Source of the DNA: Amycolatopsis sp. GM8
GTDB taxonomy: Bacteria; Actinomycetota; Actinomycetes; Mycobacteriales; Pseudonocardiaceae
Assembly (NCBI RefSeq): GCF_021653975.1
Contig: NZ_JAJKFK010000002.1
Location: 992,001-1,056,000, forward strand
DNA: 64,000 nt
Direction of reading: 5' to 3'
Numbering within the stretch: position 1 is the first letter of the stretch; each line of letters starts with the position of its first letter. Position numbers and translations under genes: made by a program. The notes beneath the pieces are model-generated. The model did not search any database. It saw only the letters and a program-made list of their open reading frames with translations, and had not been told where the DNA came from. Shown here piece by piece: positions 14,256 to 36,226 of the stretch.

Positions 14256-14705
14256 ATGGCCGAGGAGAGCGAAAACCAGCGTCTCGCCCGCAACGTCAAC
14301 GAGCTGCTCAGCGAACTGCGGGTGGCACAGGCCGGCGTGCAGATCCTGTTCGGTTTCCTGCTGTCGGTCGTGTTCACCTCGCTGTTCCGCGAGGCCAGTG
14401 GCTTCGAGAAGGGCATGCACCTGACCGCCGTCGTGCTCGCCGCGCTGGCGACCGCGCTGCTCACCGCACCCGCGGCGTGGCACCGGATCCTGTTCCGCGA
14501 GGGCCGCCGCGAGGAGATCCTCCGCGTGGGCAACCGGACGGTGCTGGCCGGCCTGGTCTGCCTCGCCGCCGCTGTCTCCGACGTCGTCGCGCTGATCGCG
14601 AAAGTCGTCTACGGCCCGGTCGCGATGGGCGTGGTCGGCGGGCTGGTGGCGGTCGCGTTCGCCGTGCTGTGGTTCGTGCTGCCGCGGTGGCTCAAACGGC
14701 GGTAG
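14256..14705 (+). CDS. DUF6328 family membrane protein
   Basis: 149 residues with a hydrophilic N-terminus (NQRLARNVNELLSELRVAQ) followed by about four membrane segments (near 32-50, 58-76, 95-118 and 122-142) and a basic tail LPRWLKRR. The pattern matches the actinobacterial DUF6328 family, of unknown function. A TACTCT hexamer 8 bases before the ATG looks like a -10 element for a leaderless transcript, and I see no clear Shine-Dalgarno site. Divergent from the FAH-family gene. Confidence 0.8.
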   Translation: MAEESENQRLARNVNELLSELRVAQAGVQILFGFLLSVVFTSLFREASGFEKGMHLTAVVLAALATALLTAPAAWHRILFREGRREEILRVGNRTVLAGLVCLAAAVSDVVALIAKVVYGPVAMGVVGGLVAVAFAVLWFVLPRWLKRR

Positions 14706-14811
14706 ACCGGCCTGCTGAGCAGTAGCGCGGCCTGGCGCGTCCGCGGCGCCGTGCGGCCGTGACCGCTTCCTAGGGTGGCCCGCCTCCGACCGAGAGAGGA
14801 GGTGTGAGGCT

Positions 14812-14937
14812 GTGCGCGAACGCAAGCCCGGAGTGATCCGGGTTGCGATAGCCCTGGAGATCAGGGGGACCGCAACCCGGATCGTGGTGAACTCCGCGCT
14901 GGTACTGGCGATGTGGTTGTCGGTGTACCTGCGTTGA
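14812..14937 (+). CDS. Small ORF (41 aa) of unknown function
   Basis: GTG start with a GAGGAGG-type ribosome site a few bases upstream; ends in TGA 5 bases before a strong hairpin terminator. The basic N-terminus (RERKP) is followed by a hydrophobic C-terminal half (IVVNSALVLAMWLSVYL) that could form one membrane helix, like small membrane peptides. The coding strand contains a long perfect inverted repeat (14835-14883), so the region may instead be a structured RNA or a leader. I do not recognise a family. Confidence 0.4.
   Translation: MRERKPGVIRVAIALEIRGTATRIVVNSALVLAMWLSVYLR
14835..14883 (+). repeat. 49-nt nested inverted repeat (strong RNA hairpin)
   Basis: Outer arms GATCCGGGTTGCG (14835-14847) and CGCAACCCGGATC (14871-14883) are perfectly complementary over 13 bp. 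Inside them CCCTG (14852-14856) pairs with CAGGG (14862-14866) around a 5-nt loop. It lies within the small ORF at 14812, so it would form in its mRNA. Confidence 0.6.
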
Positions 14938-14942
14938 GTACC

Positions 14943-14970
14943 GCCGGACCGTCCGTGTGGGCGGTCCGGC
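14943..14970. terminator. Hairpin terminator after the small ORF
   Basis: GCCGGACCG (14943-14951) and CGGTCCGGC (14962-14970) form a perfect 9-bp GC-rich stem with a 10-nt loop, starting 5 bases after the stop at 14937. There is no U-tract, which is common for actinobacterial terminators. Confidence 0.6.
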
Positions 14971-15105
14971 TCAGCTCATCACAGCTCCATAGCACTCTAG
15001 ACCGAGGGAAGCGCCCTGCCGCGGTGGTCTGATCCCCGAACTGGCCCAGGTGAAACGGCCGTACGGATACACTTCAACTCCACCCATCACCTTCCGGAGG
15101 TCTCG

Positions 15106-17040
15106 TTGCCTCGGCTCGCCGCCTTTCTCGCCTGGTCCACCCAGACCGAGCACCCGGACGCTGTGCAGAAAGCGCTTTCGGTCATGAAGACCAAGCTCGG
15201 TGAGCACGGTTTCGACTACTACGACTGGAACGAGAACCAGTCCGTCACCAAGGACATCGGCTCGAAGGTCAGCGACGAGCTGCTGAAGTCCGATCTGGTC
15301 ATCCTCGAAGGCAGCAAGCAGCGGCCGAACCTGGCCTACGAGGTCGGTTTCGCGCACGCGCTGCACCTGCCGGTGGTCGTGATCAAACAGTCCGAGTCCG
15401 AGCGGCTGCCGGAGAACTTCGGCGAGCCCGAGTACCTGTCGTACCCCTCGGCGGTCGAGGACGGGGCCGGGTTCGAGATGTTCGAGAGCCGCTTCACCGA
15501 CTGGCTCCGCAAACTCGCGCGGACGACGCTCTCGCCGGGACAGCGGTCCGCGCGGCAGGGCCGCAACGTGCTGAACGAGCAGATCAACAAGTTCATCGAC
15601 GGCTATCCCGAGGAACACGCGAGCCTGCACCTGCTCGGCGGCTGGGCCGGCGCGCTGGCGCACGAGCTCGATTCGGGTGGCGCGTCCCAACTGGTCGTCG
15701 ACGCCGACTACTACCTGCCGAGTTTTTCGAGCCTGCGCGAGTGGAACGGCGGCGACATCCGCGCGATCGCCGACCTGACCGACGAGACCGAGCAGTTCTG
15801 GACTCCGGACCACCCGGAGGAGATGACCGCGAACGTCAGCGAACGCGTCTTCCTCATCGACTGGTCATGGTTCTTCGAGAACGAGGACAAGCTCGCCCGG
15901 CAGATCGACCTGTGGAAACGGCACCAGGCCCGCCACCGGGAAGGGCCGTACGACATTTACATTGCCGCCAAAGAGGAACTGCGGGTCGGTGAGGTGCATC
16001 CGCTGGGGCCTGCGGCGGTCGGGCACCACCTGCTGCTGCTCGACCCGGACCTGATCGGCGGCTACCGGCCCAACCCGGGCCGCGTCGACGGGCGGCAGTT
16101 GGTCATCGAACGCAACTCGCTGCGGTTCGCCAGCGCGAGCCAGTTCTACGACTCGATCAAGGCGCGCGCGGTGCGCTTCGAACCGACGATGAAGGCCGCC
16201 GATCTGCGCCGCGCGTGGGTGGCGCGCAACGGGGTCGGGCACTGGGACGAGGACTGGACGAGCGAGACCGAGTTCCGCTCGCCTGACTATTTCGATCAGT
16301 ACGAGCGGCACATCCGGTGCTGGATTCCGCGGTACGCGCAGCTGATCCGGGACAGCGCGGCGACCGTGTTCCGCGAGATCCTGCGGATCTATGCGGACAA
16401 GATGCGCTCGGTGGACGTGCTGGAGATCGGTTACGGCACCGGACGGTTGACAAGTGAAATCGTGCCGTGGATTCGCAATATCAACCGGCCTTTCTACGAT
16501 TTGGAGCACCACGGACCGGTGCGGCAATATCGTGGCGTCGACCGCGCCGAACAGATGACCAAATACGCGCGCGACTTGTTGCAGCCGGAATCGCAGACAG
16601 GGCTGGACATGCGACTCGCGCGTGGCACGGCGTGGGACGATGTCGACGGCCGCTATGACGTCGTATTCGGCTCGCTGGTGATGCATTTCCTGATCGGCCC
16701 CGAGCCGACGGACGAGGCCCTCGACGAATTCTTCCTCAATTGTGCCGAGCACACGACCGAAGACGGCACGCTCGTGTTCGCGGATGTGTTCGGTGTCAAC
16801 GGTGATCGCCGCGGCGCCTCGGCGATGGAAAAGTGGCGCGAGTGGATGATCCGCTACGGCCTCGCCGAGGAAGAGGTCGACGGATACATGCGCGGCAACG
16901 CCGACATGACCACCGCCGCCCCGGTTTCGCAGCTGCGCAAAGCCGCGGAAGCGCACGGCTTCAAAGCGCGGGTCAAAGTCGTTGGGGCACCGACATTGCC
17001 GTTCCGCATCGTGGTCTTCCAGAAGGAACGACCGGCGTAG
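15106..17040 (+). CDS. NDT/TIR-like nucleotide-hydrolase domain fused to SAM methyltransferase
   Basis: 644 residues; TTG start with a GGAGG site 6 bases upstream. Residues 1-140 look like the nucleoside 2-deoxyribosyltransferase/TIR-like alpha-beta domain: an SDLVILEG strand (62-69) then PNLAYEVGFAHAL (74-86) with a probable catalytic Glu at about 79, the pattern of NAD- or nucleotide-cleaving effectors. Residues about 170-350 are an unfamiliar middle region (LVVDADYYLP, ERVFLIDWSWFF), possibly a degenerate PLD-like module. Residues about 390-640 are a class I methyltransferase with motif I VLEIGYGTGRLT (438-449) and FGSLVMHFL. A hairpin terminator follows at 17048. It is upstream of a STAND NTPase and a RyR protein, so a conflict/defence role is plausible. 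Function untested. Confidence 0.72.
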   Translation: MPRLAAFLAWSTQTEHPDAVQKALSVMKTKLGEHGFDYYDWNENQSVTKDIGSKVSDELLKSDLVILEGSKQRPNLAYEVGFAHALHLPVVVIKQSESERLPENFGEPEYLSYPSAVEDGAGFEMFESRFTDWLRKLARTTLSPGQRSARQGRNVLNEQINKFIDGYPEEHASLHLLGGWAGALAHELDSGGASQLVVDADYYLPSFSSLREWNGGDIRAIADLTDETEQFWTPDHPEEMTANVSERVFLIDWSWFFENEDKLARQIDLWKRHQARHREGPYDIYIAAKEELRVGEVHPLGPAAVGHHLLLLDPDLIGGYRPNPGRVDGRQLVIERNSLRFASASQFYDSIKARAVRFEPTMKAADLRRAWVARNGVGHWDEDWTSETEFRSPDYFDQYERHIRCWIPRYAQLIRDSAATVFREILRIYADKMRSVDVLEIGYGTGRLTSEIVPWIRNINRPFYDLEHHGPVRQYRGVDRAEQMTKYARDLLQPESQTGLDMRLARGTAWDDVDGRYDVVFGSLVMHFLIGPEPTDEALDEFFLNCAEHTTEDGTLVFADVFGVNGDRRGASAMEKWREWMIRYGLAEEEVDGYMRGNADMTTAAPVSQLRKAAEAHGFKARVKVVGAPTLPFRIVVFQKERPA

Positions 17041-17047
17041 GGCCCGT

Positions 17048-17080
17048 GTGGACGGCCGCCGCGCTGAGGGCGGCGTCCAC
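17048..17080. terminator. Hairpin terminator after the NDT/TIR-like methyltransferase gene
   Basis: GTGGAC-G-GCCGCC (17048-17060) pairs with GGCGGC-GTCCAC (17069-17080): 12 bp with one bulged G and an 8-nt loop, 7 bases after the stop codon. It suggests that the downstream STAND gene has its own promoter in the 17081-17226 gap. Confidence 0.6.
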
Positions 17081-17226
17081 CCGTGTGCCGCGGTATGCCG
17101 TTGCGGAGCGCACTCTGAGGTGGTTTCATCTACGGAAACCGAGAGTTCGTCCCTCGGATTAGGTCGATCGAGTCAACGGCCGGACACGCCGCGTAACGTG
17201 CCGCCCGTGGCCATTCGGGAGATGCT

Positions 17227-19299
17227 GTGCCAGACAAGTGGTTCCGACGCATGATGAAGCGTCTGTTCAAGACGACTGCGGGCGACCCGGACATCAACTA
17301 CGACTGGCCGCTCGAGATCCCCGTACACAAAGGATTCGCGGTCGGCATGAGGCCATGGCTGAGGCGGCTTCGCCCGGTGTTCGAGCCGGCGTTCCGGACC
17401 CGCATGTTCCTCGTCGCCGGTGGTTCCGGGCTTGGGAAGACGACGCTGCTCATCAGTCTGGCCAAAGAGGCCCTGAGGTGGGGTTTTCCGGCGCTGGTGA
17501 TCTATGTGGACTTGAACGGAACCTCTGGTGACGGGCAGATCGAAGGTATCCAACTGGCGATACTCCGCAAGCTCGGGGTGTCGGAGGCCGTGATCGATGC
17601 TGCCGGTTCCGATGGGCTCGCGCGGCTCTACCAAGTGGAGACCACCGCACGGCATTTCCTGCTTCTTCTCGACAACGTGAAGTCCCGGGACCAGGCGCGG
17701 GAGCTGTGTCCGGGGCCGGGCAACACCGTGGTCCTCACCAGCCGAACCGCCGCGCCGGCACTGGCGGCGCTGTGCGAGGACACGATCAACCTCACGGGGC
17801 TGGGCTACGAGGACGCGAAGAATCTGCTCGTGGGGCTCGCTGGCGCTGAACGGATCGACGCCGATCTGGACGCTGTCAAGACTCTCGTGGCCCAGTGCGA
17901 GGGACTTCCGCTGGCGCTGCTGCTCGTCGGCACCCTGCTGGTGAGCGACGAGGCGATGACGGTCCGGCAAGTGGTCGACGGCTTGGAAGCGCGGGAAAGC
18001 CGGAAGGCGAACGGTCGCAGCAAGCAGATCGAATCGGTGCTCGACCTGTGTTACGCGCGCCTGGAGGCAGTCGAGCCCAATGCCGCGCGGCTGTTCCGCT
18101 GTCTGGGCGCCAGTGTTGGGCGGGCGCATCTTCCACCGCTGCCACGAGCGGCCCTGGCAGCTCTCGCCAGGCTGTTTCCCGGGACCTCCGACGCTGCCGT
18201 CGACATCTTGCTGCACTGGCAACTGGCGAAGGCCGATCGCCGCGGCCGCATCTACCTCCACGGCACGGTTCGCCAGTACGCGGCACGCAAGCTCGGCCGC
18301 TCCGAAGATGCCTTGAAGAGGCTGATCCGCTGGTACACAGGCTCGGCCTATGCGGGCGGGAACGCGCTCGCTGACGGCTGGGCGGGTGACCTCATCCCGG
18401 ATACCACGGGCATCGTGCCCCACGAGTTCAGCTCCGAACGCCCGGACCTCGTCCTGGCCTGGTTCGAACAGGAACGGTCCACGATGGTCGCCGTGCTGCG
18501 CGACTTCGGGCACGTCACACCGAATTCCTGGCAGCTGCCCGTGTTCTGCCTGCCCGCGCTGTTCATCCGGAGGCCGCTCGACGACTGCCGGGAACTTGCC
18601 CAGCGCGCCGTGCGGCTCGCCCAGAACAATGACTTCGGCCGTGGGCGATGCTTGCATCTGTACGCCTGGGTCGAAAACGAAACCACAGCTGGTGCCCCGG
18701 CGACCCGCTGTCTGGACGAGCTGGTCGATCTCCACGACCGGATCGCCGATGAGCGCGGGCGTGCGTGGACGATGTACGTGTGTGGCCAGCGCTTCGCCGT
18801 GCAGCGTGAGTTCGCACAAGCAGACAGGTGTTTCCGGGAGGCGCTCCGGCATTTCAGGGCGACGGGCTTCCGCTTCGGCATAGCGATCGTGCAGTCGACG
18901 AGAGCGGTCGTTCTCGATGGCCTGGGCCGGGACGACGACGCTCGGTCGGCCGCACAGGAGGGGCTGACCATCGCCTGTGAGCTGGGGAACATCCCGTTGC
19001 GCGCGTTCGCCCGCGACCAGGTGGGGTTCTTGTATCAGCAGCACGGCGAGTTCGGCGAAGCAATCAGGATCTACGGTCAGGTCCTGCACGATCGTCATCG
19101 CTCAGGCGAACGATGGGGTATCGCGGACACGCTCTTGCGGCAAGGGCAGGCATTCGCGGGCATGGGCGACCGCGAGCGGGCCAGGGAGGCGCTGACCACA
19201 TCGCTGGCGATCTTCCAGGAGCTCCGGGATCACCGCCAAGTTCTCGTGGTGCAGCTGGCGCTGGCGAGTCTTGACATCGAGTACCGTGCCGGCAACTGA
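17227..19299 (+). CDS. STAND NTPase (NB-ARC-like) with C-terminal TPR-like repeats
   Basis: 690 residues. GTG start with GGGAG 5 bases upstream. The NTPase core has Walker A AGGSGLGKTT (64-73), Walker B HFLLLLDN (143-150), the sensor strand TVVLTSRTAA and the GLPLAL motif of NB-ARC proteins. A winged-helix-like linker (about 300-390) leads to helical repeats (about 440-680) such as QADRCFREALRHFRATG and EAIRIYGQVLHDRHRSGE that read as TPR units. No DNA-binding BTAD domain precedes the NTPase, unlike the SARP at 46290, so it is probably a signal-sensing switch, not a pathway activator. It lies between the NDT/TIR-methyltransferase and RyR genes, a context known for STAND proteins in conflict systems. 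Confidence 0.8.
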   Translation: MPDKWFRRMMKRLFKTTAGDPDINYDWPLEIPVHKGFAVGMRPWLRRLRPVFEPAFRTRMFLVAGGSGLGKTTLLISLAKEALRWGFPALVIYVDLNGTSGDGQIEGIQLAILRKLGVSEAVIDAAGSDGLARLYQVETTARHFLLLLDNVKSRDQARELCPGPGNTVVLTSRTAAPALAALCEDTINLTGLGYEDAKNLLVGLAGAERIDADLDAVKTLVAQCEGLPLALLLVGTLLVSDEAMTVRQVVDGLEARESRKANGRSKQIESVLDLCYARLEAVEPNAARLFRCLGASVGRAHLPPLPRAALAALARLFPGTSDAAVDILLHWQLAKADRRGRIYLHGTVRQYAARKLGRSEDALKRLIRWYTGSAYAGGNALADGWAGDLIPDTTGIVPHEFSSERPDLVLAWFEQERSTMVAVLRDFGHVTPNSWQLPVFCLPALFIRRPLDDCRELAQRAVRLAQNNDFGRGRCLHLYAWVENETTAGAPATRCLDELVDLHDRIADERGRAWTMYVCGQRFAVQREFAQADRCFREALRHFRATGFRFGIAIVQSTRAVVLDGLGRDDDARSAAQEGLTIACELGNIPLRAFARDQVGFLYQQHGEFGEAIRIYGQVLHDRHRSGERWGIADTLLRQGQAFAGMGDRERAREALTTSLAIFQELRDHRQVLVVQLALASLDIEYRAGN

Positions 19300-19309
19300 C
19301 GCCGGAGCA

Positions 19310-19330
19310 TCGACGGGCCGAGCCCGTTGA
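19310..19330. terminator. Possible hairpin terminator after the STAND gene
   Basis: TCGACGGGC (19310-19318) pairs with GCCCGTTGA (19322-19330) around a 3-nt loop; 9 bp including one G-T pair, 11 bases after the stop. Moderate stability; may only attenuate read-through into the RyR gene. Confidence 0.4.
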
Positions 19331-19381
19331 TCCACACTGGACCTCCCCGACCGACTCACGGAGGCCATCGTTTTCGCACTG

Positions 19382-20950
19382 ATGTCGCGGCCCGCTGTGC
19401 TGATCCGGATGTTCTTCGCCGGGCTCGTGGTGGTGTCGCTGGTCCTCGGCTACCTCGGGCTCGCCGAGTACCTGGCCGCCAGCACGCAGTTCGCGCACCG
19501 GCCGATCGATCTCATCTACTACGACCTGCAGCTCTTCGTGATCAACTCGGCTCCGGTCTCGAACGGCGGGCCGTATCCGTGGCCGCTGGAGGTCAGCCGG
19601 TTCCTGACGCCGGCCGTGACCATCTACGCCGCGATAGAAGCCGGGCGACTCCTGTTCGCGGCCGAGCTCGCGCGGCTGCGGGCCCGCCGCCGGGCTCGGC
19701 ACATCATCGTGTGCGGCGACTCCGACGCGGCCCGCACGCTCGCCGCCCACCTGCAGGCCGGCCACAAGGTCGTGCGCATCGACAGCGCCCGCAGTCCGGA
19801 CGTGCTCATCGCCGCCGGGCTGGCCCGCGCCGACCGGCTCTACGCCCTCGCCGACGAGACGCCCGCCAACATCGCCACCGTCCTCGCCGCCAGCCAGGTC
19901 GAGCGCCGGGCCCACGCCTCGCTCCAGGTGCACGCGCATGTCGCCGACCCGGAACTCGGCGACGTGCTGCGCGACCGCGGCTGGCGCGACGAGCTCGAGG
20001 TCGACTTCTTCTCCCTCGACGGCGTCGCCGCGAAACAGGTGCTCGCCGCCTTCCAACCCGACGGGGAACGGCTCGTCGTGATCGGGCTCAGCGCGTTCGG
20101 CCGCGCACTACTACTGGAGCTCGCGCGCCGGGCGGGCGAGCGCACCGTGGAGGTGATCGTCGCGGATCCGGACGGTGCGGCCGCGGTCACAGAACTGCAG
20201 GCGCGGCACCCGTTCTTCGCCACCGCCTGCCAGGTCACCGTGGTGCCTGTCTACATTCCGGAACCAGGTGTGCACCTGGTGTTCGTCTGCCACGATGACG
20301 AAGAGCGCGCCCTCCGGGACGGGCTCACGGCCGCCGCGACCGTCGACGCCACTCGCGGTACCGTGATCGTGCGCATGGCTCAGCTCGCCGGGGTCGGTGA
20401 GATGATTGTGCAACATGGCCACGAGGACCGGCTGCGATTCGTAGGAGTACTGGACATGGCGAGCGTGTATCTCTCGGAGCGGATCACCGATTCGCTGGCA
20501 CGCGCATTGCACCGCCGCTACCTCCGCGACCAGCTGGCGCTCGGCCAGGACGCCCAACGCAACCCGTCGCTCGTCGACTGGGACGAACTTCCGGACACCC
20601 TGCGCGACGCCAACCGCGCCTCCGCCGACGACATCGAGCGCAAGCTCACCATGGTCGGCTGCCGGATGGTGCCGAGCCTCGAGGCGGTGTCGTTCGCGTT
20701 CGAGCCCGAAGAGGTCGAGCGGCTCGCGATCGCCGAGCACGAGCGCTGGATGACCGAGCGCAAGGCCGACGGCTGGCGGCTCGGCGACCGGCGGGACAAC
20801 GAGCGCAAGGTGCATCCCGACCTGCGGCCGTGGGACGACCTGGGTGAGGTGGAACGCCAGAAGGACCGCAACGTCGTGCTCGCGCTGCCGGATATCCTCG
20901 CCGACGCGGGGTTCCGGATCGAGCGCGTCCGGGGTCAGCGCAACCGGTAG
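19382..20950 (+). CDS. Membrane-anchored TrkA-N (RCK-like) protein with C-terminal RyR domain
   Basis: 522 residues. N-terminal membrane segment (about 10-31) and a second hydrophobic stretch (about 74-93) are separated by a YPWPLEVSRFL loop. Two Rossmann-like units follow: HIIVCGDSDAARTLA (107-121), with a degenerate glycine motif, and RLVVIGLSAFGRALL (about 229), as in TrkA-N/RCK nucleotide-binding modules. The C-terminus (about 440-515; EHERWMTERKADGW, DLRPWDDL, KDRNVV) matches the ryanodine-receptor RyR repeat. Bacterial RyR domains occur in predicted nucleotide-signal conflict systems; here the domain might bind an NAD- or nucleotide-derived signal and gate a membrane response. No good Shine-Dalgarno site precedes the ATG, so an ATG at 19409 is an alternative. 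The 3' end overlaps the convergent DUF3040 gene by 16 bases. Confidence 0.75.
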   Translation: MSRPAVLIRMFFAGLVVVSLVLGYLGLAEYLAASTQFAHRPIDLIYYDLQLFVINSAPVSNGGPYPWPLEVSRFLTPAVTIYAAIEAGRLLFAAELARLRARRRARHIIVCGDSDAARTLAAHLQAGHKVVRIDSARSPDVLIAAGLARADRLYALADETPANIATVLAASQVERRAHASLQVHAHVADPELGDVLRDRGWRDELEVDFFSLDGVAAKQVLAAFQPDGERLVVIGLSAFGRALLLELARRAGERTVEVIVADPDGAAAVTELQARHPFFATACQVTVVPVYIPEPGVHLVFVCHDDEERALRDGLTAAATVDATRGTVIVRMAQLAGVGEMIVQHGHEDRLRFVGVLDMASVYLSERITDSLARALHRRYLRDQLALGQDAQRNPSLVDWDELPDTLRDANRASADDIERKLTMVGCRMVPSLEAVSFAFEPEEVERLAIAEHERWMTERKADGWRLGDRRDNERKVHPDLRPWDDLGEVERQKDRNVVLALPDILADAGFRIERVRGQRNR

Positions 20951-21219
20951 AGCCAGGTCCGCCACAGGATCGCGGTCGGCACCACGCACGTCAGCACGGT
21001 GCCGAAAACGATCAGGAACCCGTTGTGGGATTGGCCACCGGCAACCATGATGAACAGCCCGGCGACGACCGAGCAGACGGCACCGATCACCGCCAACACC
21101 ACACTCGGAATCCGCATCGGCCGCAGCTCGGACAACCGCTGGGCCAGGCGCGGGTTCTCCTCGGCCAGCTGCTGTTCGATCTCAGTCAGCCGTCGCTGCT
21201 CTTCACCGTGAAGTGCCAT
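20935..21219 (-). CDS. DUF3040 family small membrane protein
   Basis: 94 residues: a charged N-terminal half with RRLTEIEQQLAEENPRLAQRL (about 9-29), typical of DUF3040, then two membrane helices (about 37-58 and 67-86) and a basic tail. Family of unknown function, widespread in actinomycetes. It converges on the RyR gene and overlaps it by 16 bases. Confidence 0.82.
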   Translation of the reverse strand: MALHGEEQRRLTEIEQQLAEENPRLAQRLSELRPMRIPSVVLAVIGAVCSVVAGLFIMVAGGQSHNGFLIVFGTVLTCVVPTAILWRTWLYRLR

Positions 21220-21437
21220 GCCGCACCGCCTTCACCCATCATTATGATCCCGACCGGGGGGACTTGTCATCGCGGCGATGGGTGTGAACTTTTTTCGACT
21301 GCCAGAACGTTGCTCACCGTGAGTAGGTAACATAACCTGCCGTTAACACTCTCGTGGGCTTTGGGGCAGGGGGGACCGCGCTTCCATCCACGAGGACGCA
21401 CCGCGCGTGCCGAGCGCGCGGGGAGGGAGGCCTGACC

Positions 21438-21563
21438 ATGAGCGTGCGCCAGAAGGAGCAGGAGTCCACGCCGATCTTCGCCGAGCTGACGGCGGACTTC
21501 GACCTCGACCAACTCCTCGGGGAGCCGGTGGAACCGGACAACGGGGCAGAGCAGAACGACTGA
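21438..21563 (+). CDS. Small acidic protein (41 aa), unknown
   Basis: ATG with a GGGAGGGAGG site 8 bases upstream, so translation is likely. The product is very acidic (FAELTADFDLDQLLGEPVEP core) with no Cys, signal peptide or membrane helix. The FDLD element resembles FxLD lanthipeptide leaders, but there is no Ser/Thr/Cys-rich core and no modifying enzyme nearby. The upstream 220-base gap (21220-21437) holds a likely promoter and no other gene I can see. Confidence 0.5.
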   Translation: MSVRQKEQESTPIFAELTADFDLDQLLGEPVEPDNGAEQND

Positions 21564-29236: not shown

Positions 29237-30526
29237 TCAATCCGCCATGACCATCGCATCGTCCTCGGCGGGGCGGCGGGTCGGGCTCTGCCAGCGCCCG
29301 GTGGACCGCGCACGCCACGCCAGCCAGATCGCGAACAGGCCGATCGCCGCGTCGAGAATCCTTAGTGGCAAATAGAAAGGCATCGCCAGCAGATACCGCC
29401 ACCGTCGCTCGACGATCGCGATCGCCAGTGTCAGCACGACATCGGGCAGCAGCACGCCCAGCCCGATCGTGCCGAGCGACACGTAGTCCGCCACCGCGTG
29501 GTACGCCTCGCCGAAACCGGGTGCGACGCCCAGCGCCGGGAACACCGCCGGTAGCGCGAGCAGCAGCACGACCATCGGCAACAGCACCATGAGGATGCTC
29601 GCGAAGACGAGTTCCGCGATATAGCCGAGCAGCATCGCGGTGAACAGGTCGGGCCGTGGCCGGAACCGGCGCGCCGTCTGCCAGAAACCGAGCGCCCACC
29701 GCCGGGTCTGCCGCACGTAGTCCCGCCAGTTGTCCGGATCCTGGGTGACCGCCCGCGCGGCGAGCGAGAAACCCACCTTGCCGAGCCGCCGCCGGTACAC
29801 CTCGAACGTCATGTTGAAGTCCTCGATCACCAGCCCTGGCGGGTTGATGTCGAGATGTGGTAACACTTCCCCGCGGTACAGGCTCGCGAACCCCGGCACG
29901 ATGTACGTCGCGTTGGTGCGCCACCAGGTCTGCCCGAACTTCAGCAATCGTTGCAGCAGCGCGTAAATCCGGGAGCGATGTGCGGTCAGCAGGAGCGCGG
30001 CCAGGCCGCGCCGCGACGAGCGCCAGTCGGTCACCGCGCAGCCGGCCACCGCGACGACCTCCGGGTCGTCGAATTCCGGCAGTGCCGCGTCGAAGTAGCC
30101 GGGGTCGAGCCGGGTGTCCGCGTCGAGCAGCAGCACCGCGTGGAAGCGCTGGAGAGCGAAATGCCGGATGCCTTCCAGTAGCGCGCCCGCCTTCCCCACG
30201 TTCACCGGCGTCTGTGTGACGTGCACCCCGGCCTGTTGGGCGAGCTCCACCGTGCGGTCGGTGGAACCGTCCGACACTACGTAAACCTGGTCCGCCGGCA
30301 CGAGTTCGGTGATCGCGGCGAGCGAATCCGCGATCACCACTTCCTCGTTATGGGCCGCCATCAGCACCGCCACCTCGGGCAGGCTGACCTCGCGCGACCT
30401 CTCGCCGTAGTTCAGCACGCGGGGTGGCCCCAGCCGCTGCTCGACCGCCCGCGCGATGCCCGCCATTCCCCAGATCGTGAAGTTGATCCCGAGGATGAAG
30501 ATCGCCAGTACCACGACCGGAATCAT
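29237..30526 (-). CDS. Processive family-2 glycosyltransferase (polysaccharide synthase)
   Basis: 429 residues. One N-terminal membrane helix, then a cytoplasmic GT-A domain with LMAAHNEEVVI (about 53-63), the nucleotide-sugar DAD motif in LLLDADTRLD, the catalytic acid in VIEDFNMTFE and the processivity motif QTRRW; about three to four C-terminal membrane helices. This is the layout of hyaluronan, chitin and poly-GlcNAc synthases. The ATG at 30526 overlaps the GH18 gene stop (ATGA). Last gene of a five-gene operon with a UDP-sugar dehydrogenase and an epimerase; it probably makes and extrudes a cell-surface polymer whose sugar is not evident. Confidence 0.88.
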   Translation of the reverse strand: MIPVVVLAIFILGINFTIWGMAGIARAVEQRLGPPRVLNYGERSREVSLPEVAVLMAAHNEEVVIADSLAAITELVPADQVYVVSDGSTDRTVELAQQAGVHVTQTPVNVGKAGALLEGIRHFALQRFHAVLLLDADTRLDPGYFDAALPEFDDPEVVAVAGCAVTDWRSSRRGLAALLLTAHRSRIYALLQRLLKFGQTWWRTNATYIVPGFASLYRGEVLPHLDINPPGLVIEDFNMTFEVYRRRLGKVGFSLAARAVTQDPDNWRDYVRQTRRWALGFWQTARRFRPRPDLFTAMLLGYIAELVFASILMVLLPMVVLLLALPAVFPALGVAPGFGEAYHAVADYVSLGTIGLGVLLPDVVLTLAIAIVERRWRYLLAMPFYLPLRILDAAIGLFAIWLAWRARSTGRWQSPTRRPAEDDAMVMAD

Positions 30527-31623
30527 GATCCCGCCTCCCGTGCGCGCCCGACCTGATACCAGTGCTGGGCGAGCTTGGTCCAGATCAGGTCGTCCTCCGG
30601 GCCGAACATCCAGAGGAACACCCCGCCGATCCGGTATTCGCGCGCCAGGTCGAGCTTCGTCGAGGCGCTGTAAGCGTTTTCGAACCACAGCTCGTGCCGC
30701 TGGCCGTCGCCGTCGACGTACCCGAGATGCGGCGACTCGCTGACCCCGTCCCAGTCGACCGGTGCGCCGAACACCCGCGACCGGCCGTAGACCTGCAACC
30801 AGCTCACCGGCGTGCCGGCGTGCCCCACCCAGTCGTAGCCGTACATCGGGATCCCGAGCACCAGCTTGGCCCGCGGGATCTGCGTGACGGCGTAGTCGAG
30901 CACCGAGCGCACCCATGAGATCGGCGAGATCGGCCCGGGCGCCGAGGTCTGCCAGTGGTAGTCGTAGGCCATCAGCCGCACCTGGTCGGCGGCGCGGCCG
31001 ATCGCGGCGTAGTCCTGTGCCCGGTTGCGTTCGTCGTAGCCGGCGTCGGTGGGCTTGGCGAAGACGTCCACCGAGAGCCGTTTTCCGTGTGCGTGCAAGG
31101 CATTCCCGAGTAGCTGGAGGAAATCGCTGAAGACTTTTCGGTCCGAATTGGACAGTTCTTCGTAGTCGATGTCGATCCCCGCGTAGTTCTCGCGCTGCAC
31201 GAGCGCGACGATGTCGTCGACATGCCGCCGCATCGCCGCCGGATCGTGCAGGATCGCCTTCACCACGTCCGGCCGCCACTGACCCGCCGACACGTTCGCG
31301 ATCGTCGGCGTGACCTCGACGCCGGCGTCGCGCAACCGGGCCAGCTGGGCCGCGCCGTCGGTCGTGGCCTGGCCTTGCTGCAGTGCGACGGTGGGGTGCG
31401 CGCCGCCCTGCTCGTCGAGCCCGTACAGCCACGGCGATGCTTCGTTCACGACGTCCGGGTGCGCGAGCACGGAGTTCGTGCCGCCCACGATGTTCCAGTA
31501 CGGCATCGACGCGATCGTGGCGATCGGGGAGGCCGCCCCGGCGCCGGAGTCCGGCAGGATCGTCACGAGCAGCAGCTCGCAGGCGATCAGCAGCGCCACC
31601 GGACCCCGGCGCACCCCGGTCAT
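30523..31623 (-). CDS. Secreted GH18-type glycoside hydrolase
   Basis: 366 residues with an N-terminal signal segment (hydrophobic about 8-30, then GAGAASP). The GH18 catalytic motif is GIDIDYEEL with the acid Glu at about 155, and RLMAYDYHW and LVLGIPMYGYDW are standard strand-6 to strand-8 features of the chitinase fold; Trp in GVFLWMFG closes the barrel. Length fits single-domain members (spore-peptidoglycan or chitinase-like). It sits between the epimerase and synthase genes with ATGA overlaps on both sides, so it may trim or release the polymer made by the GT2. Confidence 0.88.
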   Translation of the reverse strand: MTGVRRGPVALLIACELLLVTILPDSGAGAASPIATIASMPYWNIVGGTNSVLAHPDVVNEASPWLYGLDEQGGAHPTVALQQGQATTDGAAQLARLRDAGVEVTPTIANVSAGQWRPDVVKAILHDPAAMRRHVDDIVALVQRENYAGIDIDYEELSNSDRKVFSDFLQLLGNALHAHGKRLSVDVFAKPTDAGYDERNRAQDYAAIGRAADQVRLMAYDYHWQTSAPGPISPISWVRSVLDYAVTQIPRAKLVLGIPMYGYDWVGHAGTPVSWLQVYGRSRVFGAPVDWDGVSESPHLGYVDGDGQRHELWFENAYSASTKLDLAREYRIGGVFLWMFGPEDDLIWTKLAQHWYQVGRAREAGS

Positions 31624-32591
31624 CTCGGCACCGCGGCCGTCCGGTCCGCCAGCACGCCGTCCAGGATGTCGTCGAGCCCCCTGGCAGGCTGGAAACCTAT
31701 GGCCTGCTTGGCTTTCGTGCAGTCCGGCACGCGCCGTTCCATGTCCTCGTATCCCGGTCCGTACGCCTGCTCGTACGGCACCCGCACGATGCCGGCCGGT
31801 GAACCGGTGCGGACCAGGACCCGGTGTGCGAGCTCCTCGATGGTGACCGGCTCCGGGTTGCCGAGGTTGAACACGGTGCCGTGCGCGCGCTCGTCTTCGA
31901 GCAGCGCGACCAGCGCCGGCACGACGTCGAGCACATGGCAGAAGCACCGCGACTGCTGCCCGGTTCCGAAGACCGTCAACGGTTTCCCGGCCAGCGCCTG
32001 GTCGACGAACCTCGGCACCACCATGCCGTAGCGCCCGGTCTGCCGCGGCCCGACGGTGTTGAACAGCCGCACGATCACCGTCCGCAGCCCCTTTTCGACC
32101 GCGTAGAGGTGCGCGAACGTCTCGTCCAGCGCCTTCGCCTCCGCGTAGGACCACCGGTTCTTCAGCGGCGAACCGATGATCCGGTCGTCTTCCTCGCGCA
32201 GCCCCATCGCGGTGTTCTTGCCGTAGATCTCGCTGGTCGAGGCGAGCAGCATCCGCGCGCCCGCCCGGCTCGCGGCGGCCAGCACCGTCTCGGTGCCGGT
32301 CAGGTTCGTGCGCAGGCTTTCCAGTGTCCGGTCGAGAATGGTGAACACGCCGACCGCGGCCGCGAGGTGGTACACCGCGTCCGCACCCGCCAGGCACGTT
32401 TCGACGATCGTCGCGTCGCACACCGAGCCGGGCACCACCGTCAGCCGCGGATTTGCCGACAGTGCTCGAAGATTGCGCGCGGTGCCGGTGCTGAAGTCGT
32501 CCAGCACGATGACCTCGTGGCCGAGGCTCAGCAGATACTCGGTCAGGTGCGAGCCGATGAAACCGGCGCCCCCCGTGACGACAACCCGCAT
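31620..32591 (-). CDS. NAD-dependent nucleotide-sugar epimerase/dehydratase (extended SDR)
   Basis: 323 residues. NAD motif TGGAGFIGSH (6-15), the catalytic Ser/Thr region LASTSEIYG and YxxxK in SYAEAK. The LDRTLESLRTNLTGTETVL and LFNTVGPRQTGRYGMVVPRF stretches resemble UDP-glucuronate decarboxylase and UDP-glucose 4-epimerase types. It follows the UDP-sugar dehydrogenase gene by 11 bases and overlaps the GH18 gene by ATGA. It likely modifies a UDP-sugar for the synthase at 29237; product not determined. Confidence 0.88.
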   Translation of the reverse strand: MRVVVTGGAGFIGSHLTEYLLSLGHEVIVLDDFSTGTARNLRALSANPRLTVVPGSVCDATIVETCLAGADAVYHLAAAVGVFTILDRTLESLRTNLTGTETVLAAASRAGARMLLASTSEIYGKNTAMGLREEDDRIIGSPLKNRWSYAEAKALDETFAHLYAVEKGLRTVIVRLFNTVGPRQTGRYGMVVPRFVDQALAGKPLTVFGTGQQSRCFCHVLDVVPALVALLEDERAHGTVFNLGNPEPVTIEELAHRVLVRTGSPAGIVRVPYEQAYGPGYEDMERRVPDCTKAKQAIGFQPARGLDDILDGVLADRTAAVPR

Positions 32592-32602
32592 GCGGTTCCC
32601 CT

Positions 32603-33877
32603 TCAGACGAGCGCGCGCTCGGGCGCGTCAGTGAACGTGTAGGTGGCGTCGAGCACGATCGGGCAGTGCCCGACCCAGCTGTAGTCGTGCCCGGGATGGG
32701 TCGTGTGCACGAGCGCGAGATCCCAGTCGGTGCCGTGTGGTTCGGTCACGCTTTCCAGCACCCGCCCGCCGTCCAGCGCGAGCCGGTCGACCATCGGGTC
32801 GTAGTAGTCCACCTTCGCGCCGCGGGCGAGCAGGTCGGCGATGATCTCCAGCGCCGAGGACTCCCGCAGGTCGGCCACGCCGGGCTTGTAGCTGGCGCCC
32901 ACGACGACGACGCGTGCGCCCGCGACGCCCCGGCCGGCGTGGGAAAGCGTTTCCAGCGTGCGGGCGACCACGCGCTGCGGACGGTCGGAGATCAGGGTCA
33001 TGGCCTGCGTGACGAGCGGCGCGGTGACGCGGACCGCCTTGAGCTGCCACAGCAGGTAGTGCGGATCGCACGGGATGCAGTGCCCGCCGACGCCGGGTCC
33101 GGGATAGAACGCCAGGAAACCATAGGGTTTGGTCGCCGCGGCCCTGGTGATCTCGATCGGGTCGAGCTCCAGCGTGCCGCAGATCTCGGCGAACTCGTTG
33201 GCCAGCGCGATGTTCACCGCGCGGAAGGAATTTTCGTACAGCTTGGTGAGTTCGGCGGCTTCGGCGGAGCTGACCTCGTGCAGCATCGGCGTGAGCAGGC
33301 CCAGCACGGCTCGTGCCGCGGTGGCGCACTGCGGCGTCGGGCCGCCGACGACGCGCGGGGTCTCCTGCTGGGTGTGGTCGGGGCGGCCCGGGTCGATCCG
33401 CTCCGGGCTGAACGCGACGAAGATGTCCGAGCCGACCTCGAATCCGCGGTCCGCCAACGGTTCCACGAGCAGTTGCCGCGTCGTGCCGACGAAGCTGGTC
33501 GAGGTGAGGATGAGCGTCTGCCCGGGTCGCGCGTGCTCGACGACGGCGCGGCACGCGGCACGCAACGGGCTCAGTTCGGGGCTGAGGTGGTCGTCCAGCG
33601 GGGTGGGTACGCAGACGATGACGGCGTCCGCTTCGGCGAGCCTGGTTTCGTCTTCGGTCAACTGGAAGCCGGGGTCGTGCCGGGCGCGGGCGAGGCGTTC
33701 GCGGTCCGCGTCGACGAGGTCGGGTTCACCGGAGGTGATGGTGCGCAAGCGTTCGGTGCTCACGTCGAGGCCGATCGTTCTGGCGCCCGCCTCGTGCAGG
33801 GCCAGTGCCGTGGGCAAGCCCACGTAGCCCATGCCGACGACGGCGACGGAACGTGGTCTCGAGGATGCGATGGTCAA
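32603..33877 (-). CDS. UDP-sugar 6-dehydrogenase (UDP-ManNAc/UDP-Glc dehydrogenase family)
   Basis: 424 residues. The N-terminal NAD motif VAVVGMGYVGLPTALAL (12-28), SPERIDPG, the central dimerisation helix, the catalytic Cys in GVGGHCIPCDPHYL and a C-terminal UDP-binding ASYKPGVADLRES make it a nucleotide-sugar dehydrogenase of the WecC/UDP-GlcNAc type, which oxidises the 6-OH to a uronate with two NAD+. It starts 6 bases after the LuxR gene and is followed by the epimerase, supporting a uronic-acid-containing polymer. Confidence 0.9.
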   Translation of the reverse strand: MTIASSRPRSVAVVGMGYVGLPTALALHEAGARTIGLDVSTERLRTITSGEPDLVDADRERLARARHDPGFQLTEDETRLAEADAVIVCVPTPLDDHLSPELSPLRAACRAVVEHARPGQTLILTSTSFVGTTRQLLVEPLADRGFEVGSDIFVAFSPERIDPGRPDHTQQETPRVVGGPTPQCATAARAVLGLLTPMLHEVSSAEAAELTKLYENSFRAVNIALANEFAEICGTLELDPIEITRAAATKPYGFLAFYPGPGVGGHCIPCDPHYLLWQLKAVRVTAPLVTQAMTLISDRPQRVVARTLETLSHAGRGVAGARVVVVGASYKPGVADLRESSALEIIADLLARGAKVDYYDPMVDRLALDGGRVLESVTEPHGTDWDLALVHTTHPGHDYSWVGHCPIVLDATYTFTDAPERALV

Positions 33878-33883
33878 GGCGGC

Positions 33884-34582
33884 TCACTCCTTTCTGGATG
33901 AGTTGTCCGGTCCGAGCCCGGCGGCACGCGCGAGCTTGACCAGTTCTAGTCCACTGTGGACATTCAATTTCCGGAAGATGTTCCTCATGTGGGTGCGGAC
34001 GGTGTGCCGGGACAGGTTGAGCCGGCGGGCGATCTCCGGGCCGCGGGCACCGTCGACCATGGCCCGGAGTACGTCGTTCTCGCGGTGGCTGAGGACGTCG
34101 AGCGGGCGCGGCCGCGCGCGTCTGTCGCCGGGCAGCCGCACGAACACCTGCGCGAGCAGTGCCGGTGGATACCAGGCGTGCCCGGCACGCGCCACGTGCA
34201 CCAGCTCGACCAGCCGCTCGGTGGAGCTCTCCTTCGGGATCCACACGTGAATACCGGCCCGGACGGCCTGGGCGGCGAGCGCCGGGTCGCGGCTGCCGGT
34301 GAGCGCGGCGAACCGCGCCCGCGGGGCGGCCCGGCGCCAGTCTTCGATGTCCGTGGGCAGCCGCGCGCCGAGCTGCTCGACGTCCACGCTCACGACATCC
34401 GGCTGCGCGCCGGTCAGTGCCAGGGACAGCTGGGGATCGCGCGGTGTCCGATGCCCGGCGACACGCACCCCCGAGGTGGACTTCAGGCCCATCAGCAGAA
34501 CGTCGGCGAACAGTTGCTGTTCGTCGACGAGAAAGAGCCGTGTGGCGTCCACATTGACCAGCAAAGCGTGCAACGGGAGCAT
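33884..34582 (-). CDS. LuxR-family regulator with atypical receiver domain
   Basis: 232 residues. C-terminal LuxR helix-turn-helix (about 160-225): LSHRENDVLRAMVDGARGPEIA and LSRHTVRTHMRNIFRKL. The N-terminal half resembles a receiver (LFLVDEQQLFADVLLMGL), but the phospho-acceptor region reads DVVSVDVEQLG and the usual acidic pair and Lys environment are partly changed, so phosphorylation is doubtful. First gene of the polysaccharide operon and divergent (169-base gap) from the polysaccharide deacetylase gene; it probably controls both. No partner kinase lies next to it, the nearest being at 37116. Confidence 0.82.
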   Translation of the reverse strand: MLPLHALLVNVDATRLFLVDEQQLFADVLLMGLKSTSGVRVAGHRTPRDPQLSLALTGAQPDVVSVDVEQLGARLPTDIEDWRRAAPRARFAALTGSRDPALAAQAVRAGIHVWIPKESSTERLVELVHVARAGHAWYPPALLAQVFVRLPGDRRARPRPLDVLSHRENDVLRAMVDGARGPEIARRLNLSRHTVRTHMRNIFRKLNVHSGLELVKLARAAGLGPDNSSRKE

Positions 34583-34750
34583 TGTCGTCGTCCAGCTGCG
34601 CGAGCCGCCACTCCCGCAAATGACGGAGGAACAAAGTCCCGCGGCCGCCGAGACCGGCCGGAAATCATTGTGGGGTGGGCAAAATGCGGTAGGGGGGCTA
34701 GGCCGTTGGTGGGAGTCGCCGCACGCCGTCCGGCCCTAACGTGAGATGGC

Positions 34751-36226
34751 ATGAAAAGGAACAGACAACCGAACGCCCGGCGAAGACGGGTGTACGTGAT
34801 TGCGGCCGCCGCCGCGCTGCTGGTCGGCGGCCTCACCGTGCCGGTGGTGAGCACCCCGGCGCAGGCCGCGACGACGACCGCGGTGAGCCTGACCTTCGAC
34901 GACGGCAACGCCGATCAGATGCAGGCGAAGCCGATCCTCGACAAGTACGCGATGAAGGGCACGTTCTACATCATCACCGGTTCGATCGGCGCGCCGAACT
35001 ATCTCACCCGTGCCGACCTGCAGACGCTGTCCGCGGGTGGCAACGAGATCGCCGGCCACACGGTCAACCACCCCGATCTGACGACGGTGCCGGCGGACGA
35101 GGCGAAACGGCAGATCTGCAACGGCCGCGCGGCACTCGCGAGCTGGGGCTACCAGGCCACCAGCTTCGCCTACCCGTACGCGGCGTTGAACGCGTCGGTC
35201 GAAAGCATCGCGCAGCAGTGTGGCTACAACAGCGCCCGCGGCCTGGGCGATCTGCGCTCCGCACACGGCTGCAACGGCTGTCCGTACGCCGAGACCGTCC
35301 CGCCGGCGGATCCGTACGCGCTGAAGGCGCTGGACGAACACGACAACACGTGGACGCTGGCGCAGATGCAGAGCGCGGTCACGAATGCCGAGCGCACCGG
35401 CGGCTGGGTGCCGTTCACGTTCCACCACGTCTGTGCCGGCACCGGCTGTGACGCGCTGTCGATCACGCCGACGATGCTCGACCAGTTCCTGTCCTGGCTC
35501 GCGGCGCGGACGTCCCGTGGCACCACGGTCAAGACGGTGAACCAGGTGGTCGGCGGCACGGTGAAACCGATCGTCACCGCGCCGGCGTCGACCAACACCG
35601 GGCTGGTCAACACTTCGCTGGAGACCTCGACCAGCGGCACCGGTTTCCCCGACTGCTATATGCCCGGCGGATACGGCAACAACACGGCCACCTGGGCGCG
35701 GACGACCGCCGCGCACACCGGCACGGCAGCCGAGCAACTCACCGTCACCAACTACCAGGACGGGGACGCGAAACTGCTGCCGACGTTCGATCTCGGCGCG
35801 TGTACCCCGACCGGCACCGCGGGCCAGACATACACGGTGTCGGTCTGGTACAAGTCCACGGCGATAACCCAGTTCGCGCTGTACTACCGCACGACGGACG
35901 GCTTCTGGACGTACTGGACGTCCGGGCCGTGGCTGGCCGCCGCGCCGAACTGGACGCAGGGCACGTTCACCACGCCCCCGCTCCCGGCCGGTGGCGTGGG
36001 GTTCAGTTTCGGGCTGTCCCTGATCGCCAACGGCACGCTGACGACGGATGACTACGGCTTGGCCAGCGGTTCGGGCACCCCCGCGGTGCGCGCCGCCGCG
36101 ACCGCGGCCGGATCGCCGTCGCCGCTGCGCGGAGCCATCGTCAGCCACCAGTGGGGCAAGAACGCCAAACCGCTGGTGCCTTCGGTGCGGGGCGTGGTCA
36201 TCCCCGCCGCGGCGCCTGGTGACTGA
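34751..36226 (+). CDS. Secreted polysaccharide deacetylase (NodB/CE4) with C-terminal beta-sandwich-like region
   Basis: 491 residues. Signal peptide with basic start (KRNRQPNARRRR) and cleavage near AQA-ATT (about 37-40). The NodB domain (about 45-240) has the TFDDG metal/catalytic motif (about 47-51) and HTVNHPDL with the metal His residues. A second region (about 280-440; YGNNTATWARTTAAHTG, TVSVWYKS, FWTYWTSGPW) looks like a jelly-roll carbohydrate-binding domain. Such enzymes remove N-acetyl groups from GlcNAc polymers or peptidoglycan. Divergent from the LuxR-headed synthase operon, suggesting it works on the same surface polymer. The next gene overlaps its stop. Confidence 0.9.
   Translation: MKRNRQPNARRRRVYVIAAAAALLVGGLTVPVVSTPAQAATTTAVSLTFDDGNADQMQAKPILDKYAMKGTFYIITGSIGAPNYLTRADLQTLSAGGNEIAGHTVNHPDLTTVPADEAKRQICNGRAALASWGYQATSFAYPYAALNASVESIAQQCGYNSARGLGDLRSAHGCNGCPYAETVPPADPYALKALDEHDNTWTLAQMQSAVTNAERTGGWVPFTFHHVCAGTGCDALSITPTMLDQFLSWLAARTSRGTTVKTVNQVVGGTVKPIVTAPASTNTGLVNTSLETSTSGTGFPDCYMPGGYGNNTATWARTTAAHTGTAAEQLTVTNYQDGDAKLLPTFDLGACTPTGTAGQTYTVSVWYKSTAITQFALYYRTTDGFWTYWTSGPWLAAAPNWTQGTFTTPPLPAGGVGFSFGLSLIANGTLTTDDYGLASGSGTPAVRAAATAAGSPSPLRGAIVSHQWGKNAKPLVPSVRGVVIPAAAPGD

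Follow-up and report, generated by a model that had tools for sequence, protein, structure and literature searches.

A TIR/NDT-like enzyme and a membrane RCK-RyR protein as a candidate two-gene signalling module in Amycolatopsis

Introduction

Thoeris joins a TIR protein, ThsB, to a second protein, ThsA, in a system of two genes, as far as the accessible part of the source describes it (PMC11204291). On the phage side, proteins with a RyR domain bind or cleave the cyclic ADP-ribose signals made by TIR enzymes, according to the accessible portion of the report on the phage enzyme RyDEP (PMC13232231). The same portion names H75, W78, H100 and D117 as the RyDEP residues holding these signals, and states that six of eight tested homologues bound signals while cleavage was seen for RyDEP only. 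It also asks whether the corresponding part of animal ryanodine receptors encounters signals of this kind. Here, we describe a locus within 64,000 nucleotides of Amycolatopsis sp. GM8 (contig NZ_JAJKFK010000002.1, positions 992,001 to 1,056,000; hereafter the window), in which gene A encodes a putative base-cleaving enzyme fused to a methyltransferase, gene B a STAND NTPase and gene C a membrane protein with a RyR domain.

The constant unit of this locus is A together with C, and gene B is an optional neighbour. We tentatively propose, with a probability of about 0.45, that A and C form a two-gene, Thoeris-like module for nucleotide signalling, which lies as a cassette between core genes. This enzyme-receptor reading is favoured because A and C are paired, because the RyR pocket of C is intact and because TIR/NDT-type genes neighbour some homologues of C.

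Results

Genes A and C are present or absent as a unit

Three co-oriented open reading frames lie on the + strand at 15106-17040 (A), 17227-19299 (B) and 19382-20950 (C), confirming the layout given by an earlier, sequence-only reading of the window; gene calls were made with an in-house script, not a published caller. Full-length A was found in 7 of 19 genomes of the genus, in 2 of 150 family genomes (the family search covered 150 of 390) and, among 394 genomes of the class, only in the window's own genome; it is also present at six named Amycolatopsis loci and in G886. The seven genus genomes that carry A are also those that carry C, and the other 12 contain neither. A STAND gene lies between them in G000, G154 and G157, with all three genes co-oriented, and an unrelated, antisense M20 peptidase gene occupies this place in G150, G158 and G152. 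For G914 and G886 (another genus of the same family), C follows A directly with neither gene in between, separated by 28 bp in G914 and joined by an ATGA overlap in G886. Altogether, A and C are adjacent or separated by a single gene in eight of the nine A-C genomes, and the gene beside A is a STAND gene in four, an M20 peptidase gene in three and none in two. The sequence-only reading had described a three-gene island and set a gene-neighbourhood survey as its check: the triad rarely co-occurs and is not conserved, because STAND adjoins A in only four of the nine genomes, while the A-C pair does co-occur. On the same count we rejected a three-gene operon acting as one fixed system.

The locus is bordered on the left by a gene whose small, conserved product is unmatched in Pfam (14256-14705, + strand), which adjoins A in all seven genus carriers and which presumably corresponds to the label D6328, a longer reading of the gene likewise giving no match in Pfam. 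According to the gene calls, the right border gene encodes a DUF3040 protein (20935-21219, − strand) and is convergent with C. A dihydrouridine synthase gene near the locus, present in 19 of 19 genomes, was used to find the site in the 12 non-carriers. In ten of these, the two border genes abut in convergent orientation, their stop codons separated by −16 to +16 bp; in six carriers, where the A-C cassette fills the site, the distance between the border genes is 4.7–7.8 kb. The left border gene was not recovered in G155, and G064 holds about 5 kb of unrelated genes at the same site, with neither A nor C found. The gap between the convergent core genes (window 14706-20934; L124:14124-19113) is an insertion site, and the G064 cargo consists of three genes that by eye look glycosyltransferase-, glycosidase- and transporter-like.

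A tree of three core proteins does not place the carriers in one clade (approximately unbiased test, p 0.005), and its well-supported branches, only 3 of the 16 inner ones, force at least two changes. From this small tree we read that the whole A-C cassette was probably gained or lost more than once.

Gene C is a membrane TrkA-N/RCK protein with an intact RyR pocket

Gene C (522 residues, ATG start) combines an N-terminal membrane segment with a TrkA-N/RCK region and a C-terminal RyR domain. Pfam assigns TrkA_N with 38.4 bits and RyR (PF02026) with 62.8 bits, above the cut-off of 27.4, and ryanodine receptor chains in the PDB are matched with a best E of 1.2e-22. One hydrophobic stretch is clear (residues 1-34) and a second candidate is weaker. 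The RyR domain (20714-20926, + strand) includes H453, W456, H478 and D495, which correspond by their spacing (+3, +25, +42) to H75, W78, H100 and D117 of RyDEP, whose chain in PDB entry 35TM matches residues 450-504 of C. Alignment to an RyR1 chimera pairs the same four residues. They are invariant in seven of seven close rows, and across 68 rows of the C family the first histidine is kept in 67, the tryptophan in 67, the second histidine in 57 and the aspartate in 55.

The C profile matches 52 of 394 class genomes, in whole or in part. In plasmid, phage and viral collections, matches to C were confined to the RyR region and came from one plasmid record and two phage records, with none in viral contigs; a phage, plasmid or viral origin was rejected, as these collections hold only such RyR-region matches to C and none to A. 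For proteins of 579-604 residues at L215, L216, L217, L218 and L220, the match is limited to the C-terminal portion of the profile, where RyR lies, and these proteins are missing the second pocket histidine and the aspartate. An RCK-gated K+ channel was also considered for C and rejected, the selectivity filter motif T[VIL]G[YFL]G (TVGYG type) being missing from its sequence.

TIR/NDT-type genes neighbour some distant homologues of C

For the neighbourhood analysis we sampled 20 and 40 top-ranked distant C loci together with two family-level loci, a selection that is not random and includes partial matches. The final set comprised 68 loci, six genus carriers among them; 56 encode a full-length C, 48 of these outside A-C genomes, and 12 were not counted as full-length, including L243, where no C was called. 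Within two genes of the 48 distant full-length C genes, 9 of 190 genes encode TIR, NDT, DUF4062 or TPR-S proteins, versus 3 of 442 genes farther away (Fisher p 0.0016, an optimistic value, since related loci are treated as independent). Adding SLOG-like genes gives 20 of 190 near versus 4 of 442 farther. Counted by locus, 7 of 48 have a TIR/NDT/DUF4062/TPR-S neighbour, or 15 of 48 with SLOG-like genes; by clusters of C at 60% identity, the numbers are 7 of 19 and 10 of 19.

The individual arrangements are diverse. TIR genes flank C on both sides at L115, where one overlaps C, and at L240, and a single TIR gene adjoins C at L239 and L114. A gene for an NDT-TPR-S protein lies just downstream of C at L075, a TPR-S gene lies two genes from C at L214, and L211 has a SLOG-like gene near C and a DUF4062 protein two genes away. 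The TIR, TPR-S and DUF4062 domains of these neighbours are named by Pfam, and five TIR genes (two at L114, two at L240 and one at L115) pass the Pfam ThsB_TIR cut-off; at L075, the NDT region of the gene is supported solely by the A-based profile (E 0.0015) and a shared motif. The six distant C homologues found near TIR, NDT or TPR-S genes (L114, L115, L239, L240, L075, L214) keep all four pocket residues, and the DUF4062-linked row (L211) has asparagine instead of aspartate at the last place.

A SLOG-like gene of about 150–180 residues adjoins the C homologues at L225, L226, L227, L228, L230, L237, L238, L240, L244 and L211. Among eight members there was one PF02481 match under the cut-off and one YAcAr match with E 0.0048, and in a PDB search DprA appeared as the ninth of nine weak matches. 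Since the support for a SLOG identity of this gene of about 160 residues is weak, the name SLOG-like was chosen and the gene was counted separately.

Gene A couples an NDT/TIR-like region to a methyltransferase

Gene A (644 residues, TTG start) consists of an NDT/TIR-like amino terminus (residues 1-140; 15106-15525, + strand), a middle region unmatched by Pfam and a class I methyltransferase at the carboxy terminus (16417-16779, + strand; motif VLEIGYGTG), where Methyltransf_11 scores 22.1 bits against a cut-off of 21.2. The first 140 residues alone reach 21.5 bits with Pfam NDT, still under its cut-off of 28.8, and the same family matches eight of nine related amino termini with E up to 0.05. 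The putative catalytic residue Glu79 (codon 15340-15342, + strand) lies within PNLAYEVGFAHAL. It is invariant in eight of eight alignment rows, a 60% paralogue included, and is also kept in the NDT-TPR-S protein of L075. An A profile aligns Glu79 to the YE.G.A motif of DNPH1/Rcl, with a best PDB profile match of E 0.14, and the PADLOC ThsB profile reaches A with E 0.039 only. The domain calls of the sequence-only reading stood in Pfam for the methyltransferase, for NB-ARC and TPRs without a DNA-binding match, for TrkA_N and for RyR, and fell short of the cut-off for the NDT region of A. G154 carries a tandem second copy of A (L030:13911-15812), 60% identical, in which Glu79 is kept and methyltransferase motif I is changed.

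Gene B is an optional and fast-diverging STAND neighbour

Gene B (690 residues, GTG start, + strand) encodes NB-ARC (54.6 bits in Pfam) followed by TPRs, and no DNA-binding domain was matched in it by Pfam or NCBIfam. In NCBIfam it comes closest to AfsR and HaaT, with matches that span the NTPase-TPR part only and lie far under the cut-offs; an AfsR-like regulator was rejected, the SARP DNA-binding domain being unmatched. STAND proteins in the slot beside A share 37–47% identity with the window copy, compared with 89–95% for A and 82–88% for C. Compared with its G000 version, an off-slot STAND protein is 71% identical in G157 and 54% identical in G026; the off-slot copy of G154, at 48%, may be a paralogue. 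The slot proteins cluster together, joined by one off-slot copy from G153. In the closest relative, G157 (L028:10483-12249), AASGMGAS replaces the Walker A motif with loss of its lysine, and the long frame stays open. Rapid evolution of a sensor and relaxed constraint would each account for the divergence in the slot, and the two explanations are not separable here.

Spacers and surroundings

Hairpins had been proposed between the genes, a claim that is supported in part. Folding of the A-B spacer is no better than that of shuffled sequences (z −0.16), and the B-C spacer does fold better than shuffles (z −2.43). A scan of 14700-21500 for T-tailed terminators returned a single site, inside gene B, below the shuffle mean of 2.9. 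Farther along the window, at 29237-36226, adjoining genes encode a family 2 glycosyltransferase, a GH18 protein, a protein of the UDP-glucose dehydrogenase type and a polysaccharide deacetylase; together they may form a cluster for a surface polysaccharide.

Discussion

How the two proteins could work together can be sketched from their domains. Set off by an infection-type trigger, A would use Glu79 of its NDT/TIR-like domain to cleave the N-glycosidic bond of nicotinamide adenine dinucleotide (NAD+) or another nucleotide, giving an ADP-ribose-type product, perhaps modified by the methyltransferase part of A. This product would be bound in the RyR pocket of C, and C, through its RCK region and membrane segment, would alter membrane permeability or ion flux, so that growth stops. 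Where present, the STAND protein would be an optional accessory. In this scheme, what A cleaves and makes, what C binds, which way the signal runs, how the membrane responds, any part in defence and the roles of the methyltransferase and of STAND are predictions from sequence. The sequence-only reading had likewise suggested that the RyR protein answers a product of the TIR-like enzyme, and this half of its proposal gains inferential support from the co-occurrence and adjacency of A and C, the intact pocket and the TIR/NDT-type neighbours of some C homologues.

Several observations weigh against the two-gene enzyme-receptor module. Across its full length A scores 17.9 bits with Pfam NDT, under the 28.8 cut-off, and it has no match to Pfam TIR; the AlphaFold2 model of A was unusable (mean predicted local distance difference test score 45, predicted template modelling score 0.30). 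No A was found in the phage, plasmid and viral collections, PADLOC gave partial or weak matches only, and the genes around A, B and C look ordinary. In G026, STAND follows A, and C lies about 51 kb from A in the opposite orientation. Shared descent partly explains the co-occurrence of A and C within one genus. At 41 of 48 distant C loci, TIR/NDT/DUF4062/TPR-S genes are missing within two genes of C, and 33 of 48 are without any when SLOG-like genes are counted too. The Fisher test treats related loci as independent, the loci tested came from the top of rankings, and the profiles were trained on some of the neighbours, although for the TIR profile leaving out one locus at a time still recovered the TIR genes of each locus.

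If A and C were simply unrelated genes gathered at one hotspot, C could be a nucleotide- or ion-regulated housekeeping membrane protein and A an enzyme of nucleotide metabolism. The other cargo of G064 at the same site, the ordinary-looking neighbours in the window and the many C homologues outside the genus that sit in conserved neighbourhoods without a TIR/NDT gene are all in line with this. Yet A and C are also together amid different neighbours in G914 and G886, once as an ATGA overlap, G064 has neither of them, and TIR/NDT-type genes near C homologues are commoner than expected; we consider this explanation somewhat unlikely.

The two further alternatives keep a functional link and change the roles. 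A true three-component system, in which STAND senses infection and activates A, would account for the co-oriented B of G000, G154 and G157, for the grouping of slot STANDs with one G153 copy and for a divergence beyond that of the off-slot protein, as expected under diversifying selection on a sensor; genomes without STAND would then have lost it. Five of the nine A-C genomes are without STAND in the slot, however, the G157 copy has lost its Walker A motif, and relaxed constraint would yield equal divergence, all of which makes such a system improbable. STAND as an integral sensor, proposed by the sequence-only reading, is therefore not upheld. Alternatively, C could act as a sink instead of a receptor and limit the product of A by degrading or sequestering it in the RyR domain, as is done in phages by RyDEP and its homologues. 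Residues H453/D495 are the counterparts in C of the RyDEP catalytic pair H75/D117, and most tested homologues bound signals even though RyDEP alone cleaved them, as the accessible portion of the source relates (PMC13232231). A sink would need neither a membrane segment nor an RCK region, and the same residues align in an animal RyR repeat, which suggests that they mark binding more than catalysis; we regard a sink as very unlikely.

With an intact pocket and a link to enzymes of the TIR/NDT type, a bacterial RyR membrane protein would be a candidate for the bacterial receptor side, and the idea of RyR domains as old sensors of ADP-ribose-type signals would become testable with two genes. More doubtful is the step to a bacterial counterpart of cyclic ADP-ribose–ryanodine receptor signalling, in which a TIR/NDT-type enzyme would make an ADP-ribose-type messenger and a membrane RCK protein would bind it through its RyR domain. 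In that case, TIR-superfamily immunity in actinobacteria would have a new class of effector that works with interchangeable enzymes (NDT-methyltransferase, NDT-TPR-S, TIR-WD40, ThsB-like TIR, DUF4062), and STAND would be its optional accessory in Amycolatopsis, one that diverges fast. The Aravind group has reportedly linked RyR-type domains to nucleotide conflict systems. RyR is absent from the text of the eLife 2020 conflict-systems paper, and no bacterial pair of TIR/NDT and RCK-RyR proteins was seen in literature listings.

Compared with known systems, the STAND protein B resembles AfsR/HaaT STAND-TPR proteins in NB-ARC and TPR over about 550–600 aligned residues but is devoid of the SARP DNA-binding domain and scores far under their NCBIfam cut-offs. 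MADS defence was rejected because full-length mad2 and mad8 proteins are missing and the matches go no further than a methyltransferase segment in A (positions 292-421 of 492) and a P-loop segment in B. With NDT/DNPH1 glycosidases, A shares a sub-threshold Pfam match and the YE.G.A motif with its glutamate, and it differs by its fused methyltransferase, a best PDB profile match of only E 0.14 and a score under the curated cut-off. The DUF4062 TIR-like NADases (Swarozyc), which as far as the accessible part of the source tells act in bacterial immunity (PMC13174449), are like A in being distant TIR/NDT-like enzymes with a conserved glutamate, whereas A is not a DUF4062 protein and the DUF4062-linked C of L211 carries asparagine at the last pocket place. 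RyDEP (PDB 35TM) shares with C the RyR domain and four ligand residues at equal spacing; in the portion of the report available it is a small, soluble phage anti-defence enzyme, whereas C is a membrane protein of bacteria and includes an RCK region (PMC13232231). The closest likeness is to Thoeris, above all the type with a TM-macro ThsA, which, in the available part of the source, likewise has two genes and sets an enzyme of the TIR/NDT superfamily beside an effector in which a membrane segment is joined to a nucleotide-binding domain (PMC11204291). A, however, is without a TIR match above the cut-off and carries a methyltransferase, and C has TrkA-N/RCK and RyR in place of the SIR2-SLOG or macro domains of ThsA. 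As A fails the TIR test and C the ThsA test, our best reading of these sequences is that the A-C pair, although not a member of Thoeris, would work in the manner of Thoeris.

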